A DNA stretch of 64,000 nt from contig JAGFJO010000046.1 in the NCBI GenBank assembly GCA_024102635.1, forward strand, positions 1 to 64,000. The letters are read 5' to 3'. The position numbers were made by a program, and so were the translations under genes. Source of the DNA: Deltaproteobacteria bacterium. Lineage in GTDB: Bacteria; Bdellovibrionota_C; UBA2361; JAGFJO01. This document shows, in pieces, positions 48,063 to 56,751 of this stretch; the stretch's first letter is position 1, and each line of letters starts with the position of its first letter. The notes under the pieces were generated by a model. It saw only the letters and a list, made by a program, of their open reading frames with translations, had not been told where the DNA came from and made no database searches.

Positions 48063-48076
48063 AGAGAAGCGTGGAC

Positions 48077-48394
48077 ATGCGGATCAATCACTCTCTTAGT
48101 CAGCCTATAGCAGCTCAGCAGGCGGAGCAGTTGGTGGGCCCAAGCCCGGCCAAACACTCTACATTTCAGGAGATATTCAAAGGGTTAAGGGATGGTCCTC
48201 GCGGCCTGGGCCTGGACTCCTTTAGTGAGATTGCCCAGGTGCAACAGCGCATCTTGAGCGGGCAAAAACTTACGCCACAAGAGCTGATTATCTATCAGGT
48301 TAGAGCGGGTGAATACAATTTGAGAGTTGAATTGGTGTCAAAGATTGCAGAGAGCGTAATGGCTACAATGCGCAAGTTCCAGAGTAGCCAGTAG
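48077..48394 (+). CDS. sctI: T3SS inner rod protein SctI-like
   Basis: From ATG 48077 the product is 105 residues, the size of SctI. The C-terminal half reads LTPQELIIYQVRAGEYNLRVELVSKIAESVMATMRKFQSSQ, matching the inner-rod pattern (L-x-x-Q, then Y-x-L-x-V-E-L-x-x-K-x-x-E, final SQ). The N-terminus is variable, as usual. The rod links the export gate to the needle. It opens a run of T3SS genes, which strengthens the call. FliE-type rod proteins are an alternative. Confidence 0.7.
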   Translation: MRINHSLSQPIAAQQAEQLVGPSPAKHSTFQEIFKGLRDGPRGLGLDSFSEIAQVQQRILSGQKLTPQELIIYQVRAGEYNLRVELVSKIAESVMATMRKFQSSQ

Positions 48395-48435: not shown

Positions 48436-49386
48436 GTGCACGAGATGGAGAATAGCGACAACGCGCGCCTTGAACTTAAAAGGCGCCACACAGAGATTGT
48501 CATTAGGGAGCATCAGCGCAAGGTAGGACGGCTTGATGCAGCCTTCAAGCGCGTATGCGATGCTCTCAAATTGCGAGAGGAGAGGCTGCACTCTGCTAAG
48601 GAAAGCCTTGAGAATGCCCGTACCCAGCTCCGCCCCACTCAAGAGCTTAGAGCAAGTATCATTCATTGGCGTGGTGTCATTGCAGCGAGGACTGCTGAGT
48701 GTGCCGCTACGAAAAACGAAGTCGAGCAGCTTCGAGGAGAGCATGGAGAGATGCTATCCAGACTTGTGGTTGAGGAGCGCCGCGGCGGGCTCATCGAGGC
48801 CGCATTGTCACTTAATAAAATTGCAGCCGCAAGTGGCCGTGAAAGGTTGGATAATGAAGAGGTGGTTGAATTAAAGGCGGCCCTGTCGGCGAAAGAGGAG
48901 CAGTCGGATGACCCAGAGGAATTGAAGTGCTCGGATAACTCGCGTGTTTACGAAGCGGGATTTGAATTAGTAGCTCCCGGTTCGGAAGATAAGCCGGGCG
49001 CTAATGCATTTGCGGGGCCGCCCTGGAGAACTTTTTCCGAATCTGGCCGCGAGAACCGCGAGCAGCCACCCAGCCAGCCTCCACAACACTGCGATTCTAG
49101 GATGCGATTCGAGGAGTGCATTGAGCGGTTCAGTGAATGGCGGCATACCAGTGGGAGTGAAGTTGAGCTTGACTATAGCACACTATCAGGTCACCTCTTT
49201 TCCGTGCGGGTCGCAAGCTCTGCCCCTGGAAGCGTGGAAGTGCAGATCGCTCCGCAATACAGAGCGGCTGAATCGGTGCTAGCAGAGTGCAAGAAGGGGG
49301 TGTTGGAATCGCTTGCTTCGAAAGGGATCAAGGTTTCGTCACTGACTATTATAAGACGGCAAAAGGGAGTGCTTGGACATGACTAA
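48436..49386 (+). CDS. Fused SctO-like stalk and SctP-like needle-length regulator
   Basis: The protein has 316 residues from GTG 48436 (ATG 48445 also possible). Residues about 5-150 are a highly charged coiled coil (EHQRKVGRLDAAFKRVCDALKLREERLHS), like SctO/FliJ, which links the ATPase to the gate. Residues about 150-225 are a Pro/Ser-rich linker. Residues about 225-312 (YSTLSGHLFSVRVASSAPGSVEVQIAPQ ... LASKGIKVSSLTI) resemble the SctP/FliK-type C-terminal domain that interacts with SctU to switch substrates. SctO and SctP are normally separate. It overlaps sctR by eight bases. Confidence 0.6.
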   Translation: MHEMENSDNARLELKRRHTEIVIREHQRKVGRLDAAFKRVCDALKLREERLHSAKESLENARTQLRPTQELRASIIHWRGVIAARTAECAATKNEVEQLRGEHGEMLSRLVVEERRGGLIEAALSLNKIAAASGRERLDNEEVVELKAALSAKEEQSDDPEELKCSDNSRVYEAGFELVAPGSEDKPGANAFAGPPWRTFSESGRENREQPPSQPPQHCDSRMRFEECIERFSEWRHTSGSEVELDYSTLSGHLFSVRVASSAPGSVEVQIAPQYRAAESVLAECKKGVLESLASKGIKVSSLTIIRRQKGVLGHD

Positions 49387-50035
49387 TCCAATCTGGCTTG
49401 TGGTACTTGCCAGCGCCGTTGCGGCGTTTCCTATCGCGATAGGGCTTTTAACCTCGTACATAAAGGTAAGTGTCGTGTTGGGGATGCTGAGAAGCGGTAT
49501 TGGAGCACAACAGGTCCCGAGCGGACTGATAATAATGGTTCTCTCCTTGGCTATGACGGCCTTTATTATGGCGCCGGTTATCAAAGATACTGCCCAAGCA
49601 GCCAGAGATGGGAAGTTTTTGGATACTTCGCGTCCACCTAACCTATCCGATCTTGAATCGCTTACTCTTTTGACCGCTCCGTGGCGTCAGTTCATGCAGA
49701 AGCATTCCGGTCAGCGAGAAATCAATACTCTGCGCACGCTCTCAGTAGCCGGCGATGCGCGGGAAGCGGGCGAGCAGAATCAGGATGGAGCTCTTGAGCT
49801 TCGCATATTGATTCCCGCTTTCGTCCTTACTGAGATTAAAGAGGGCTTTGCGATGGGATTTGTGCTACTGCTTCCATTCTTGGCGATCGACCTAATCGTA
49901 GCCAATATATTAGCCGGCATGGGGATGTATATGCTGAGCCCGATGATGATCTCATTGCCGCTTAAGCTGATTTTGTTTGTCGCGGCGGATGGCTGGATAG
50001 TTCTAACCAAGGGATTGGTGGACTCGTACCTATAG
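49379..50035 (+). CDS. sctR: T3SS export gate protein SctR
   Basis: About 218 residues from ATG 49379. Core motifs are present: FPIAIGLLTSYIKVSVVLGMLRSGIG with the QQVPSGL loop, and LLPFLAIDLIVANILAGMGMYMLSP followed by SLPLKLILFVAADGW. Four membrane segments fit YscR/FliP. It assembles with SctS and SctT into the helical export gate. A site AGGGAG lies ten bases before the ATG. No signal peptide, as in non-flagellar SctR. Confidence 0.95.
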   Translation: MTNPIWLVVLASAVAAFPIAIGLLTSYIKVSVVLGMLRSGIGAQQVPSGLIIMVLSLAMTAFIMAPVIKDTAQAARDGKFLDTSRPPNLSDLESLTLLTAPWRQFMQKHSGQREINTLRTLSVAGDAREAGEQNQDGALELRILIPAFVLTEIKEGFAMGFVLLLPFLAIDLIVANILAGMGMYMLSPMMISLPLKLILFVAADGWIVLTKGLVDSYL

Positions 50036-50043
50036 GGAAGGAG

Positions 50044-50304
50044 ATGTTCGAGGCTTACCTTACAAAGACTTTCGAAATCGTCATAGCGGCCTCGGCGGTG
50101 CCGCTGGTAGCCGGTTCTCTTGCAGGTGTTATTGTAGGCGTGGTGCAGGCCGCAACGCAGGTGCAGGAGCAGAGCGTCACTTATCTGGTACGACTATTCG
50201 CCGTTTGTTGCGTGATTGCCGTGGGGGGAGAGATTCTTTTTTCATCACTTAGCGCGTTTTTAACCGAGGTACTGGCCACAATCAAATACCTGGGGAAGAT
50301 GTAA
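50044..50304 (+). CDS. sctS: T3SS export gate protein SctS
   Basis: The protein has 86 residues with two membrane segments. IVIAASAVPLVAGSLAGVIVGVVQAATQVQEQSV is the YscS/FliQ core, including the Q-x-x-T-Q-x-Q-E loop. A strong ribosome site (GGAAGGAG) precedes it. Its stop TAA shares one base with the sctT start (TAATG), so the two are coupled. Confidence 0.95.
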   Translation: MFEAYLTKTFEIVIAASAVPLVAGSLAGVIVGVVQAATQVQEQSVTYLVRLFAVCCVIAVGGEILFSSLSAFLTEVLATIKYLGKM

Positions 50305-51035
50305 TGCTGGAAGGCTACTTCTACTTCTTGGTCCATATTTTCTTTCGCAGTTTGGGGGCTATCTGCTTGCTTCCCATTGGGGAGGGGGTAAGCGGCTTTA
50401 GCCGTCATATTACGCTTGCGGCAGGGATGGCGATCTTTCTCTCTCCGCTTGATGCTTATTCTTTGCAGCCGGGATTTGCATCTATAAGCCGGGAGCTGGC
50501 TATAGGACTGTTGCTTGGTTTGCCCGCAGTTCTGGCGATAGAGGCGATGAGGACCTTAGGCGAGCTGTTTGACACCGGAAGGGGCCAGTCAATGGCGGCA
50601 ATGTACGATCCCGCTAGCAGCTTAAGCAGCTCTCAAACCGGATTTCTATTCCAAAAATGTGCGTTGGTTTTTCTGCTGGTGGCGGGGATCCTTGAGCATA
50701 TTATCGCTGCACTTTATCAGAGTATGGGCGATGTTCCAGCCGGGACGGCGCACACTTTGTCTGTGGCCGGATCAGCCTCTTCGGTAATGGCTATAGTTGT
50801 ATCTACGGCGGCTGCCAGCTTCTCCGTCTACCTGCTGTTTGCTGCGTTGTTTCTAATCTGCGATATCTGTGTGCTTTTTCTCAGCAAGGCGGTTCCCGGC
50901 TGCTCGTTCCTATGTGAAGCGTTCCAACTGAGAAGCTTGGCGGGGTTCAGCGGGGTGGTGCTGCTTCTGCACAGCGGGCTGCAGCCGATTCTTCTTGAGG
51001 CGGCGCTACCTCGCGCGGGACTGTTGTCCGGATAG
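50304..51035 (+). CDS. sctT: T3SS export gate protein SctT
   Basis: The protein has 243 residues with about six membrane segments. It shows the YscT/FliR pattern: ALGLLLGLPAVLAIEAMRTLGELFDTGRGQSMAAMYDPAS followed by the later LRSLAGFSGVVLLLHSGLQP. The segment LGELFDTGRGQS is a strong family marker. It is coupled to sctS and precedes sctU. Confidence 0.92.
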   Translation: MLEGYFYFLVHIFFRSLGAICLLPIGEGVSGFSRHITLAAGMAIFLSPLDAYSLQPGFASISRELAIGLLLGLPAVLAIEAMRTLGELFDTGRGQSMAAMYDPASSLSSSQTGFLFQKCALVFLLVAGILEHIIAALYQSMGDVPAGTAHTLSVAGSASSVMAIVVSTAAASFSVYLLFAALFLICDICVLFLSKAVPGCSFLCEAFQLRSLAGFSGVVLLLHSGLQPILLEAALPRAGLLSG

Positions 51036-51051
51036 ATGATGGAGGCATTGC

Positions 51052-51825
51052 ATGGATAAGAGGTACGCCCCCACAGCGCGAAAGCTAAGAAAACTTCGAG
51101 CAGACGGAAATCTTCCAAAATCCCGGTACCTTACCCAATGCGTGGTACTCACCGGGATACTCGCCGCCACAGCCATTCTAATGACTTTCGCTTGGGTACG
51201 GCCTGAATTGTTGTTAGAATATCTCCTTACGGCGGGCCTAAACGAGCCTGCCACGGCATCATGGAGATGCTTTTTAGAAGCGCTCAAGGTGGTAGTAGTG
51301 GTTTTAGGCTTTGGGGCTTTAGTAGGCAGTATCAGTGAGGCGGCTCAAGCCGGTATCGGCTTTGACTGCGGACTAATAGCTCCGCGTCTGAGCAGGGTCG
51401 ATATCATCAGCGGCTGCCGCCGGCTTCTTTCTTCATCCAAACAAGCTCCCGTTCTGTTCCTAAGGTTAGTCTCCGTTTTAGCGATTTTTTCCGCAGTGAT
51501 GCTGCACCAGCTAAGCGGGTGGAGTGGGGCCGCCGGATTGGCAGCTCACCAGAGAACCAGTTGGATTTTGCAGCAGGCGCTTTTGCCGATTGCAGCAGGG
51601 TTCATAATAACCGCTCTACTTGCCGCCCTGGATCTCTATCTGGTCCGTCGCCGCTGGTGGCGATCGGCGGGTATGACGCTTGAGGAGGTCAGGCGTGAGC
51701 ACAAGGAGGAGGAGGGCGATCCCTTAATGCGTTCGTTAAGAAGATCGCGGCATGAGGAGCTTGCACTCCAGGATCTCGTAAAGAAAATTCGCGGTTCACG
51801 TGTAATTGTAGTGGAGGGGCAGTGA
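51052..51825 (+). CDS. sctU: SctU N-terminal membrane half (stops at the NPTH site)
   Basis: The protein has 257 residues. It contains the four membrane segments of SctU/FlhB and the cytoplasmic linker with MTLEEVRREHKEEEGDPLMRSLRRSRHEEL, a strong family marker. It ends GSRVIVVEGQ and then stop, exactly where normal SctU reads S-x-V-V-V-T-NPTH. The autocleavage motif and the C-terminal domain are absent. The tail bases after the stop show no in-frame NPTH remnant. A separate gene at 55118 encodes the missing domain. It must therefore work with that partner, or the apparatus lacks switching. Confidence 0.88.
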   Translation: MDKRYAPTARKLRKLRADGNLPKSRYLTQCVVLTGILAATAILMTFAWVRPELLLEYLLTAGLNEPATASWRCFLEALKVVVVVLGFGALVGSISEAAQAGIGFDCGLIAPRLSRVDIISGCRRLLSSSKQAPVLFLRLVSVLAIFSAVMLHQLSGWSGAAGLAAHQRTSWILQQALLPIAAGFIITALLAALDLYLVRRRWWRSAGMTLEEVRREHKEEEGDPLMRSLRRSRHEELALQDLVKKIRGSRVIVVEGQ

Positions 51826-51873
51826 AGCCCTTCTTTCAGCTAAGCGCGAGTCAGTAGGATCGGTAAAAAGCGA

Positions 51874-54800
51874 ATGCAGAACTCCCAAAATCAAACTGGC
51901 CAGGTGCTAAGGCGCCTAAAAGAGCAGCTGCTTTCCGCCGGTTCTGCGCAAGCTATGCTGGAACGAGTCGCGGAAGCAGTGGGGGCCTACCTAAGCTGCG
52001 ATCAGGTGAATTTGCATCTACAACATCAAGGTTTGGAGCTTAGGGCTTTTTTTTCGTCTCTTCAAAGGCGCGAGCCCTCCGGCGGTTCACCGCTTACTCA
52101 TCTGGCTTCGGAGGCTCTCTGCATTGATGGACCTTTGCATAATCTTCCCGTATTCATAACCGACTGTGATCGAAGCCGGGTAGAAGCGCCGTTGCTCGTC
52201 GCCCTAAAAAAGCAGCGCATCCTGTCGGCCGCAATTCTTCCGATTCATCTCAATGGCTCCGTGAGCGGAGCACTCGAGTGCCGCTACTATAATGCTCACT
52301 ACAGGTGGTCTGGGCAGGACAAGTTTGTACTGGAGCAGTGTCTGGAATACCTGGCCTTCGTATTGGAGGGGTACGGAAAGAGTTTAGGAAACGGTCACTC
52401 TGAATTGCAGATCGAGGCGCCTCCGGCCAGCACGGACCACCAGCAGCGCGTCCGTTCGCGCGAACGATACGAGCGGCTGGCGAAGTACGGTGAGGTCGTA
52501 ATAATTCGTACGTCCGCCGACTTCACCATTCAAGAGGTCACCGGTGACGCCAAGGAGATTCTTGGATTTGAAGCGCACGAACTTCTCGGTACTACAAAAG
52601 GCTGGCGGAAGTTCCTGCATCCTGAAGACCTGCGCCGCCTGCAAAAGACCATGGCTAAGCTTCGCGCTAATCCGGAAGAGATGTCTGAGGAGGTCAGGAT
52701 CAAGCACGGAGAAGGCAAGGAGCATCGCTGGGTGATGCTCAAGGGAGTTCCGCTATTTAAAGATGGCCGGCTCAGCGGGTGGGAAGGCTTCGGAATTGAT
52801 GTCAGCGAGCGGCGCATGGCTCAGGAAGAGCTGCTTCAGCAGAGCCGCCGTATAGAAGCGCTCTACGAGGTCGCGCGCGCTACGCAGCTGCATTTCGATC
52901 CTGCCGTTGTAATGCTGAAGGGCCTAAAGGCCCTGATCAAGGCGACCGGCTCGGACTGTGGTTTCGGATGTTTTTTCGATAATAAAACTAAGTCGATCGA
53001 GATCGTAGCCGTTGATGGGCTTTCACAAGAGTACGTCGACGAAGTTCAGCGCCGCATTAACGGACCGACAATTCTTCGAGAGGTGATTGAGAAGAAGGCC
53101 GGCGCAATGTTCGATGATATTAGAGACGATCCGCGCGCATTGAAGGATATCGTTATAAAGGAAGGACTGCGATCTACAATTGCCGTTCCGATGCTGGCCG
53201 ACGATATTGCGTATGGCGGAATCGTGTTGTACTGCAAGGAGGCCGGGCGTTACGGCAAGCAGGATTTTGAACTGGTAAATGCAGCAGCCGCGCAAATATG
53301 CGTGTCTTCACGCCATGCGGAGTCTTACTACGTGGAAAAGCAGCAAGCAGATTCGCTGGCCATCCTTTATCGAATCAGTCATGAGCTATCTAAGTATGTA
53401 AGCGCAAAGGAGGTCGCCGAGCGCGCCTTTCCTCTTATACAGCGAGAACTTGCATGCAGGAGGATGTGGCTCGGAGTTCTAAACGAGCAGGGTACGCATA
53501 TAGTCGGACAAGCAGGAATGGGGCCGGGCATACGGAGGCGTATCGTTAATGTGCAGATTGAGCTTTACCTGCGTCACGATTTCCTTGATGAAGCTTTGCG
53601 CACCAAGCGGCCCGTAATCGTCAAGCCCAACCAGGAGATGGAATGCTCGGGGCTCAACTCAATAATGCGCCGGCTAAAAGTAGGTTCTCTGGTTATTGTG
53701 CCACTTATCTCCTTGGCGCAGGTGGTCGGTGTGCTGGTTATAGAACCTGCTTCCCCCGGATTGCATCTGGTGGAGAGAAAGCTGCCGCTTTTAATAAGCA
53801 TGGCCAACGAGATTGCAACCGTTCTGCTGGCTAGACGGTTCGAAGGTAAGATGGCCGAGGCTGATAAGATGCGAATGGCGGGCATGCTCGCTTCAGGAGT
53901 TGCTCATAACTTCAATAATCTGCTGCAAGCTGTAATGGGACAGGCGTCGCTGCTTGAAATGCAGATACCGAAAGACTCGTCGCTTAATAAGTCGGCGCGT
54001 ATGATAATTGACGCGGCAGGCAAGGGAGCCGCATTGATTACGCAGCTTCTCAGCTTTTCGGCCGGTGAGAGTAACAAGCGGCGTAATATCTCGATCGACA
54101 ACGTGCTGAATGAATCTCGCGACTTGTACAAGTCCATTTTAGGTTCCGACATTAATCTTGAAGTCGACTGCCGCCCCGATCTTCCGCAGATTTTGGCGGA
54201 CTTCGGCCAGCTGCAGCAGGTCATGACAAACCTGTTGGTTAATGCAAAGGAAGCGCTGGCCTCCAAAAACGACGGCAATATCAAAATCTCAGTGAGCGAG
54301 ATTCGCCTAAAGTCCGGTGAAATTGACCCCGAGCTCGCCCCGGGAAGTTACATTCGTATCGATGTGGAGGACAACGGCGTCGGGATGGATGCAGAGCGGC
54401 AATCGAGGTGTTTCGAGCCTTTCTTTACAAGTAAGAATATTGATACCCGGACGGGGCTTGGGTTTTCAGGTTCCGGCCTGGGGCTCTCCTCGGCTTACTC
54501 CATAATGAAACAGCATGAAGGGTTGATTTCGGTGCGCAGCAATCCAGGCGAAGGGTCTGTTTTCAGCTTATTTTTCCCGGTTGTCACCAGCAAAAATTCC
54601 GGCATGAGTCATGACATGCTCTACGCAGGTGTAGCAAGTGATTCGCTTGATGTGCTGGTATACGATTTAGATGATGCAATCAGCACGGCCGTAAGGCCGA
54701 TTCTCGAATCGGTCGGTCTTAGGTCGGTGGCAACGAACCGCGAGAATCGCGCTATGGAGCTCCTGCGCCGCCCTTCGGGAAAAATTCTTGCTGTATTGGT

Positions 54801-55125
54801 CGATGTTGATAAGAGCGGTTACGATATGCTTCCATTCCTGCGCTCAATGCGCTCGGAATTCTCCGACATGCTTATCTTACTGTACACGCGGGACCCGCGG
54901 CGGTGGGCACGTCTACTGCAAGGCATGCAGCGTGTTGATGTAATCGAAAAGCCTCTGGGCGTGTGGGGGATTCATGCACTAGCGAGAAGAATTGCCAGTT
55001 TTAAGAAGATGATCGGATTGGGAGCTACTGTCGAGCTTCAGCATGTCTCCAAGGAGGACGGAGGCTCGGCTGCCCATTCGCCGCTTGAATCTTCCAGCAA
55101 GCCTGTGGATGCGCAGCATGACTAG
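51874..55125 (+). CDS. Soluble multi-GAF/PAS sensor histidine kinase inside the T3SS cluster
   Basis: The protein has 1083 residues. A GAF domain (about 12-165), a PAS domain (about 190-315), two further GAF domains (about 320-490 and 500-640) are followed by a dimerisation region with phosphoacceptor in GVAHNFNNLLQAVMGQASLLE (about residue 676). The ATPase domain has VMTNLLVNAKEAL, VEDNGVGM and GSGLGLSSAYSIMKQ. The C-terminus (about 930-1050) resembles a receiver with VLVDVDKSGYD and an EKP lysine, but the N-terminal acidic pair is altered. No membrane segment is seen. It lies between the two sctU halves and its stop overlaps the second half by eight bases. Confidence 0.88.
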   Translation: MQNSQNQTGQVLRRLKEQLLSAGSAQAMLERVAEAVGAYLSCDQVNLHLQHQGLELRAFFSSLQRREPSGGSPLTHLASEALCIDGPLHNLPVFITDCDRSRVEAPLLVALKKQRILSAAILPIHLNGSVSGALECRYYNAHYRWSGQDKFVLEQCLEYLAFVLEGYGKSLGNGHSELQIEAPPASTDHQQRVRSRERYERLAKYGEVVIIRTSADFTIQEVTGDAKEILGFEAHELLGTTKGWRKFLHPEDLRRLQKTMAKLRANPEEMSEEVRIKHGEGKEHRWVMLKGVPLFKDGRLSGWEGFGIDVSERRMAQEELLQQSRRIEALYEVARATQLHFDPAVVMLKGLKALIKATGSDCGFGCFFDNKTKSIEIVAVDGLSQEYVDEVQRRINGPTILREVIEKKAGAMFDDIRDDPRALKDIVIKEGLRSTIAVPMLADDIAYGGIVLYCKEAGRYGKQDFELVNAAAAQICVSSRHAESYYVEKQQADSLAILYRISHELSKYVSAKEVAERAFPLIQRELACRRMWLGVLNEQGTHIVGQAGMGPGIRRRIVNVQIELYLRHDFLDEALRTKRPVIVKPNQEMECSGLNSIMRRLKVGSLVIVPLISLAQVVGVLVIEPASPGLHLVERKLPLLISMANEIATVLLARRFEGKMAEADKMRMAGMLASGVAHNFNNLLQAVMGQASLLEMQIPKDSSLNKSARMIIDAAGKGAALITQLLSFSAGESNKRRNISIDNVLNESRDLYKSILGSDINLEVDCRPDLPQILADFGQLQQVMTNLLVNAKEALASKNDGNIKISVSEIRLKSGEIDPELAPGSYIRIDVEDNGVGMDAERQSRCFEPFFTSKNIDTRTGLGFSGSGLGLSSAYSIMKQHEGLISVRSNPGEGSVFSLFFPVVTSKNSGMSHDMLYAGVASDSLDVLVYDLDDAISTAVRPILESVGLRSVATNRENRAMELLRRPSGKILAVLVDVDKSGYDMLPFLRSMRSEFSDMLILLYTRDPRRWARLLQGMQRVDVIEKPLGVWGIHALARRIASFKKMIGLGATVELQHVSKEDGGSAAHSPLESSSKPVDAQHD

Positions 55126-55390
55126 GAGGAAGTACCGCTGTGCTGTTGGGCTATCGTATTCTAACCGTAGCGGAGAAGTGCCCCTCACTACCATTTGCGA
55201 ACAGAACTTCTCGGCGGATGAGATTGTGCGGCTTGCTCATCGCTTTGGAGTTCCGGTAGTAGAAAAGCCGGAGCTTGCAAGGGCCCTGCAAAAGCTGGGG
55301 GCCGACCGTGAGATTCCAGAGCATCTATATGAGGCCGTAGCTACAGTACTATACGAGATTGAGCAGGCATCGAAACGCAGCGGGCAGTGA
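55118..55390 (+). CDS. SctU C-terminal substrate-switch domain as a separate protein
   Basis: The protein has 90 residues from ATG 55118, eight bases inside the kinase stop (ATG 55109 is an alternative). RKYRCAVGLSYSNRSGEVPLTTICEQ is what normally follows NPTH in SctU/FlhB, where the usual text is Y-x-V-A-L-x-Y. RFGVPVVEKPELARALQKL and EIPEHLYEAVATVLYEI match the rest of the FlhB cytoplasmic domain. There is no NPTH, no membrane part and no signal. It would pair with the N-terminal half at 51052 to form a pre-cleaved SctU. Standalone FlhB-like C-domain proteins (FhlB type) are known beside full-length FlhB, but here no full-length copy is present. Confidence 0.85.
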   Translation: MTRRKYRCAVGLSYSNRSGEVPLTTICEQNFSADEIVRLAHRFGVPVVEKPELARALQKLGADREIPEHLYEAVATVLYEIEQASKRSGQ

Positions 55391-55650: not shown

Positions 55651-56751
55651 ATGTTCGCTCTAAAGGAGCAATCAAGCGTACGAGGTATGTCCCGACAACT
55701 AAAACTGGAACTTGTTCAGCCGGCAGGCAACACGGAACTTGCGCGTTTGCAAGGAGGGCAGGTCTTGCTGGGGCGCGAGCCGGATGACGGAGGAATCGTA
55801 GTCCCCAATCAAGCGATTTCGCGCAATCATGCTTTGATCGCAAAGGTGCGCAATCACTGGTTCTATAAAGATCTTGGAAGCACCAATGGATCGTGGATTA
55901 ATGGAATTCAGGCGCGGGAAGGTGTGTGGAAGCTGATCCGCCCTGGAGATATGGTTCAGATGGCCGATTCTGCCTTATCGGTGAGCGATAGCGGGGACGG
56001 ATCGACTGCTGCGCCGCGCATCACAGGATTTCCAGCGCTTGGCGGCGTTTCGCTACTTGTTTTCTCTAAGGGTGAATTCATCGACGAGTTTCCTGTGCCG
56101 GATTACGGTAGAGCGCTTGTGCTGGGCGGATCGCAGGGAGATCTTGAAATTGAAGGAAGTCTAAATGAGGCACCTTCCCTTATTATAGAGCGGCTAAGCG
56201 CCAATGTTTGCGCGCAAACTACCTCGAGAAACATAAAGGTCCTTATTAATGAGAAGGAGCTTAATGGCACTGTCACCCTGAGTGATCGGGATGAGATGAG
56301 TGTTGCTCACTATTATATTATTTTCAATAATCCCCCGGCCGCTGGGGCGCGTGGTGTTGCTGCGTCGCTTCGAGGTGAGCCGGCAGTCATCGGCGAGCGG
56401 CCTGAGCCAGCATACGGCGGATGGAAAGAGTGGGGCGATGAGGGAGGTAGGCCGGATCTTGCGCAGTCATCTCCGGCATATGAAGAGCCGCGTGGAAGCG
56501 CGCCCGCCGGGCGCGGGATCTTCGGTACGGGCGTCGATCAGGATTTCACGGCGGATGAGACGGTGGCGATTGATGCCGATGAAGTCGATAAGAAGATTTC
56601 TGGATACGACATGCATCCTTCCATGCGTTATATGGTTGAAGAACCCGAGCCGAGCGCTTTAGCCACTCTAGATGAGAAAATCGTATTCATTCTAGGCATT
56701 CTGCTGTTGGTGGGGTTGGTGGGGCTAATGCTCTACTGGCTCTTAAGCTAG
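55651..56751 (+). CDS. Tail-anchored protein with two FHA-like domains
   Basis: The protein has 366 residues. Residues about 12-110 are an FHA domain: VLLGREPDDGGIVVPNQAISRNHALIAKV then DLGSTNGSWINGI, the full phosphothreonine-binding signature. Residues about 130-225 look like a second, degenerate FHA (RALVLGGSQGDLEIEGSLNEAPSLIIERLS ... DEMSVAHYYIIF). A flexible acidic region is followed by a single membrane segment at the very end (KIVFILGILLLVGLVGLMLYWLL). It follows the T3SS genes by 260 bases. Chlamydial SctD has two FHA domains, but SctD has a central membrane segment and periplasmic ring domains, absent here. Confidence 0.72.
   Translation: MFALKEQSSVRGMSRQLKLELVQPAGNTELARLQGGQVLLGREPDDGGIVVPNQAISRNHALIAKVRNHWFYKDLGSTNGSWINGIQAREGVWKLIRPGDMVQMADSALSVSDSGDGSTAAPRITGFPALGGVSLLVFSKGEFIDEFPVPDYGRALVLGGSQGDLEIEGSLNEAPSLIIERLSANVCAQTTSRNIKVLINEKELNGTVTLSDRDEMSVAHYYIIFNNPPAAGARGVAASLRGEPAVIGERPEPAYGGWKEWGDEGGRPDLAQSSPAYEEPRGSAPAGRGIFGTGVDQDFTADETVAIDADEVDKKISGYDMHPSMRYMVEEPEPSALATLDEKIVFILGILLLVGLVGLMLYWLLS

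Follow-up and report, generated by a model that had tools for sequence, protein, structure and literature searches.

A type III secretion gate protein, SctU, encoded by two separate genes with the break at its NPTH autocleavage site

The 64,000-nucleotide stretch analyzed here (the window: positions 1 to 64,000 of contig JAGFJO010000046.1, assembly GCA_024102635.1, from a Deltaproteobacteria bacterium of GTDB lineage Bacteria; Bdellovibrionota_C; UBA2361; JAGFJO01) encodes the export gate of a non-flagellar type III secretion system (T3SS) in which SctU, normally one polypeptide that cuts itself at an NPTH motif, is the product of two genes that divide it exactly at the site of that motif. Known systems need the cut at NPTH to switch substrates (PMC7064499). 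Very probably the ancestral non-flagellar sctU of this class of bacteria was split at NPTH, the two-gene form became fixed, and the two products reassemble as a pre-cleaved switch.

The N-terminal half, SctU-N (51052..51825, plus strand; 257 amino acids, aa), comprises the transmembrane domain, the linker and the first strand of the C-terminal cytoplasmic domain (CTD), and stops just short of the NPTH position, as judged from PF01312, our profile A2 and the position of the break. Its open reading frame (ORF) ends ...SRVIVVEGQ*; in alignment A2 the last seven codons, VIVVEGQ (51802..51822, plus strand), correspond to the strand leading into VVTN/PTH in canonical SctU. The C-terminal half, SctU-C (55118..55390, plus strand; 90 aa), opens with an ATG at 55118, its protein starting MTRRKYRCAVGLSY, and it represents the C-terminal part of the SctU cytoplasmic domain from just past the NPTH position (PF01312 and a structure model). 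The 3.25 kb separating the halves is one intact gene for a 1083-aa hybrid histidine kinase (51874..55125, plus strand; GAF, PAS, GAF, GAF, HisKA and HATPase domains and a REC-like tail by Pfam), orthologous in the class by synteny, and the kinase stop and the SctU-C start overlap by 8 nt. SctU-N and SctU-C are thus two genes in different frames with the kinase gene in between. The gene order sctR-sctS-sctT-sctU-N, in the window and in relatives, means that SctU-N is encoded with SctRST, and no full-length SctU occurs in the 64-kb window. The two halves agree with the original prediction, made from the window alone, which had described an N-terminal half ending VIVVEGQ, a separate 90-residue gene at 55118 and no intact SctU, and which made no mention of the kinase.

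How precisely the break falls at NPTH can be read from two coordinate systems. On the Pfam model PF01312, SctU-N covers positions 2-256 (E 1.9e-37) and SctU-C positions 261-333 (E 3.8e-15), so that essentially just NPTH is missing. The second is a hidden Markov model (HMM) made from 25 FlhB sequences found in related genomes, every one of which has NPTH at model positions 275-278. Of 36 aligned SctU-N rows from the class, among which the window sequence counts twice, 33 extend to positions 273-278, 29 of them to 273 or 274, and 22 of the 23 SctU-C pieces begin at positions 278-281. Since these ends and starts flank NPTH, the two genes together make a whole SctU minus the cleavage motif. Neither half contains the motif itself, whether in the window or among the relatives aligned. 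With no NPTH, and with the halves encoded separately in different frames, self-cleavage is unnecessary, as had been proposed. The split, claimed at the outset for one locus, is confirmed and stands more strongly than it was first put.

The two halves show features suggestive of function. In an alignment of 30 SctU-N proteins the linker leading up to and surrounding the EGDP motif is conserved, as is a hydrophobic C-terminal strand, V/I-x-V-V; in 21 SctU-C proteins, A9, P22, A40, G44, I66, P67, L70 and A75 are invariant. Among solved structures, the SctU-N profile finds FlhB/SpaS in assembled gates (8axk and 6s3l; 8axk_K at E 6.7e-41) and also, as matches of their own, the N-chains from crystals of auto-cleaved CTDs (e.g. 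3b1s_A, 3bzl_A), while the SctU-C profile matches the C-chains of such crystals (e.g. 3b1s_B). Comparison with SctU/FlhB structures, which had been suggested as a check, therefore finds that the halves correspond to the two chains of an auto-cleaved CTD. SctU-C is predicted to have the FlhB/SctU CTD fold: its model has a predicted confidence (pLDDT) of 87.8, its 34 best matches in the PDB are without exception FlhB/SctU C-domains, and Foldseek returns the C-domain fold of PscU, YscU, FlhB and EscU (probability 1.00 for PscU, YscU and FlhB). Asp mutants at the position of FlhB Tyr323 bypass the ruler in FlhB, YscU and HrcU. The residue aligned with Tyr323 (window positions about 55265-55285, after LARAL) is a gap in all SctU-C and in all FlhX, the stand-alone FlhB C-domains discussed below, and is Tyr or Phe in all FlhB of the class; placement of the gap is uncertain by one residue.

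The split was looked for in a sample of 46 draft genomes from 24 families of the class, and about 20 of these families include genomes that carry it. SctU-N, the orthologous kinase and SctU-C are consecutive on one contig in 23 genomes (G000, 1, 3, 5, 6, 7, 8, 9, 10, 12, 15, 16, 17, 19, 24, 29, 30, 32, 33, 34, 36, 37, 39; in G034 the kinase spans two overlapping ORFs), and pieces broken by contig ends elsewhere are consistent with the same order (e.g. G014, 20, 21, 23, 27, 28, 31, 41, 44, 45). Because of this recurrence the split is neither chance nor an assembly error. One genome, G004 (contig C165, L040:120-1197), has the two halves next to each other, with a gap of about 13 nt and no kinase gene in it, which may be either the state before the kinase arrived or the result of its later loss.

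No intact gene was found that could stand in for the split one. The source genome (G000) has five PF01312 matches: a full-length FlhB on contig C25, the two halves in the window, an N-only match on C87 and a C-only match on C32. The C25 protein (379 aa, NPTH present) is the flagellar FlhB, adjoining FlhA, the two matches lying about 125 bp apart. Across the 46 genomes no full-length non-flagellar SctU was found, the full-length matches all being of FlhB type. A working full-length copy elsewhere in the genome, which would have undercut the prediction, is thus excluded.

Outside the class the picture is different. A SctU-N profile search of 383 genomes, with a listing that stops at low scores, gives more than 100 matches beyond the class. 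Those listed lie in frames of at least 340 aa except for two partial ones: the match in G123 is at the edge of a contig (base 11), and the one in G144 covers query positions 3-238 (contig ends unchecked). Since the listed matches are otherwise full-length, the fission looks specific to the class as far as sampled. Full-length SctU with NPTH is what the window protein's matches encode at four named outgroup loci (in Anaeromyxobacter, Sandaracinaceae and two Deltaproteobacteria metagenome-assembled genomes). A literature search found no natural split SctU, subscription papers being mostly outside its reach. Two other rearranged genes were seen: a single 690-aa frame of Anaeromyxobacter terrae (L075:1011-3080) holds SctU plus upstream sequence with NPTH intact, probably a SctT-SctU fusion, and G050, from another phylum, has FlhB as two adjacent ORFs (L154:1841-2912; Pfam 2-199 and 219-335), the second with intact NPTH, probably a frameshift and not a split at that site.

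SctU-C is a stand-alone FlhB-type C-domain without NPTH, and such proteins are already known as the FlhX/HP1575 type. A gene of that type lies at L036:818-1243 (on C32 of G000), and about 20 genomes of the class have one. The C-half could then have a different origin, SctU having lost its own and an FlhX/HP1575-type "spare part" having replaced it. The presence of FlhX-type genes in the same genomes is in keeping with this, as is the lack in both SctU-C and FlhX of the residue aligned to Tyr323; in Helicobacter, moreover, HP1575 can substitute for the C-domain of FlhB (Wand et al. 2006, as cited in PMC3040844). Against it, a maximum-likelihood tree of C-domains places 30 SctU-C sequences plus one from G040 (first labelled FlhX) in a clade of their own (ultrafast bootstrap support, UFBoot, 86), with 21 class FlhX sequences in a separate clade (UFBoot 97), SctU-C also apart from FlhB, and the T3SS outgroups falling between SctU-C and FlhB/FlhX. 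SctU-C scores 52 bits to TIGR00789 (flhB_rel) against a cut-off of 117, does not group with FlhX, and occupies the expected place in the sctRSTU operon. Recruitment of FlhX is accordingly disfavoured by the C-domain tree, which favours fission of a T3SS sctU, and we consider it quite improbable. The N-domain tree, with only four named T3SS outgroups, sets FlhB and the outgroups together (support 98) against SctU-N and paralogues that lack a CTD, its deep nodes being weak.

On the fission reading, SctU-N and SctU-C would be expressed from a single operon and come together non-covalently at the SctRST gate, so that the nicked architecture other bacteria reach by autocleavage would be present from birth. 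That the halves bind and work as SctU is suggested by their matches to the two-chain crystals and by work in Xanthomonas, where separate expression of the 265-357 fragment compensates in planta for deleting those residues from HrcU, and does so in part for secretion in culture (PMC3040844). The authors of that work conclude that what is needed is the result of cleavage, not the cutting event, and they point to Helicobacter HP1575 as a comparable case (PMC3040844). In Yersinia, the C-terminal piece YscU-CC can dissociate and be secreted (PMC3504009). Because HrcU-C works in trans and YscU-CC dissociates, a constitutively nicked two-gene SctU is the most likely arrangement here. We infer that SctU-C would dock against the terminal strand of SctU-N and that the machine is active in secretion; its switch between substrates would proceed through conformational change or exchange of SctU-C and not through the timing of a cleavage.

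Several observations weigh against this account. The isolated HrcU 265-357 fragment bound neither HpaC nor HrpB2 in vitro (PMC3040844), which shows that a C-half made on its own need not behave like one produced by cleavage. Foldseek returned nothing for the model of the SctU-N monomer, and SctU-N is for that reason identified by its sequence. The arrangement also varies within the class: SctU-C is displaced about 3.6 kb past the kinase in G022 and sits on a different contig in G038, no SctU-C was found in G018, and no SctU of this split type was found in G002.

The kinase raises the possibility that SctU-C is a regulated subunit, loaded, released or secreted separately, with the kinase controlling the operon or the switch and with supply or exchange of SctU-C replacing cleavage. 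The same kinase lies between the halves in most genomes and retains its catalytic residues (the phospho-acceptor His is kept in 30 of 31 loci examined); the distance from kinase stop to SctU-C start is short, between -53 and +39 nt for the start codons chosen and -8 nt in the window, which fits a single operon; and the release of YscU-CC in Yersinia (PMC3504009) offers a precedent. The adjacent, kinase-free halves of G004 speak against the idea, a shared operon alone is no proof of a functional link, and exchange of SctU-C is hypothetical; on balance we regard such regulation as unlikely. The kinase may regulate the operon or sense its state, and a direct link between it and SctU-C is speculation. 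A read-through fusion of SctU-N, kinase and SctU-C was rejected, as the SctU-C frame differs from that of the kinase, stops separate SctU-N from the kinase, and SctU-C is displaced in G022 and G038. It is extremely improbable that a decayed or misassembled sctU left the two halves behind and that full-length flhB does its work. The genome does have a full-length FlhB and the assemblies are drafts, but the same break, with open frames, appears in about 20 families, mostly with the same kinase between the halves; both halves retain conserved residues; and FlhB adjoins FlhA in relatives. A pseudogene, and the frameshift or assembly error that the original prediction had named as a way it could fail, are rejected on the same recurrence.

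The rest of the gate lies directly upstream of SctU-N on the plus strand: SctR (49373..50035; PF00813, E 2.8e-54, and NCBIfam NF009438 above cut-off), SctS (50044..50304; PF01313, E 6.2e-16) and SctT (50304..51035; PF01311, E 4.6e-20). Before sctR, also on the plus strand, are a candidate SctI-like inner rod protein (48071..48394; NCBIfam T3SS_SctI at E 1.2e-4, under cut-off, with syntenic homologues) and a 316-aa coiled-coil protein, a candidate SctP/FliK-like ruler (48436..49386). PF02120 (FliK-like/Flg_hook) is weak in five of 11 homologues of the latter (best E 0.0035) and was not detected in the window copy, and a profile of the family found no solved relative; the weak domain is a hint that the ruler partner remains. 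Downstream of SctU-C, in the window and in many relatives by synteny, follows an FHA-domain protein with a C-terminal membrane segment (55651..56751, plus strand; PF00498, E 6.9e-12).

A second non-flagellar set is present in G000, with SctRST and a SctU-like protein on C87 (SctU-like gene at L035:10106-10792) and SctV3 and SctJ on C73, and in G014 as a single cluster, L089; similar SctU-like genes lie at L071-L074, L089-L091, L097, L100, L145-L148, L151 and L156. This second SctU-like protein ends at or within the linker, with no cytoplasmic domain, in 18 genomes of the class, and no C-domain gene was found beside it in those 18. It is a further natural reduction of the switch. Each genome has three FlhA/SctV homologues (loci L086:9370-11469 and L088:2601-4484): flagellar FlhA and two SctV proteins, one of 700 aa and one of 628 aa whose C-terminal half has diverged. 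A single non-flagellar SctN ATPase was found, on C108. Within L086:541-13958 the 700-aa SctV gene sits amid T2SSE/T2SSF-type (Tad-like), FHA, protein kinase and phosphatase genes, a neighbourhood followed in G002 (L096) by FlgK, FlgL, CsrA and FliW-like genes.

The class's SctU shares with the SctU/FlhB proteins (YscU, EscU, HrcU, SpaS/Spa40, PscU, FlhB; PF01312) its transmembrane domain, linker, CTD fold and position after SctRST, and the final product is likewise in two pieces broken at the same place; those proteins cleave one polypeptide at NPTH, whereas here there is no NPTH and there are two genes with a kinase gene between. FlhX/HP1575-type proteins (TIGR00789) resemble SctU-C in being stand-alone C-domains of about 90 aa without NPTH, but FlhX accompanies an intact FlhB, while SctU-C is the sole C-domain for its N-half, lies in a T3SS operon and forms a separate clade. 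A functional parallel is the laboratory-split HrcU of Xanthomonas (HrcU lacking 265-357 with 265-357 in trans; PMC3040844), in which two polypeptides divided at NPTH support secretion; that split is engineered, and the one in this class is natural and fixed. FliR-FlhB and SctT-SctU fusions show that export-gate gene boundaries are rearranged in other ways too, although the fusions retain CTD and NPTH (as in Anaeromyxobacter L075) and this fission removes NPTH.

Taken broadly, the autocleavage switch may have been dismantled in this class, with a pre-cleaved SctU made from two genes, a separable C-half possibly under kinase control, a sister gate lacking the CTD, and switching without cleavage, a picture we offer tentatively. 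Whether SctU/FlhB systems need the act and timing of cleavage or the product alone has so far been argued from point mutants, and a lineage that has dropped the reaction but retains its nicked product puts that question to a natural test. In a two-gene SctU, either half could be deleted, tagged or titrated independently of the other. These genomes encode a cleaving flagellar FlhB, a split SctU and a SctU-like protein without a CTD, and so present a natural series on the parts of the switch.
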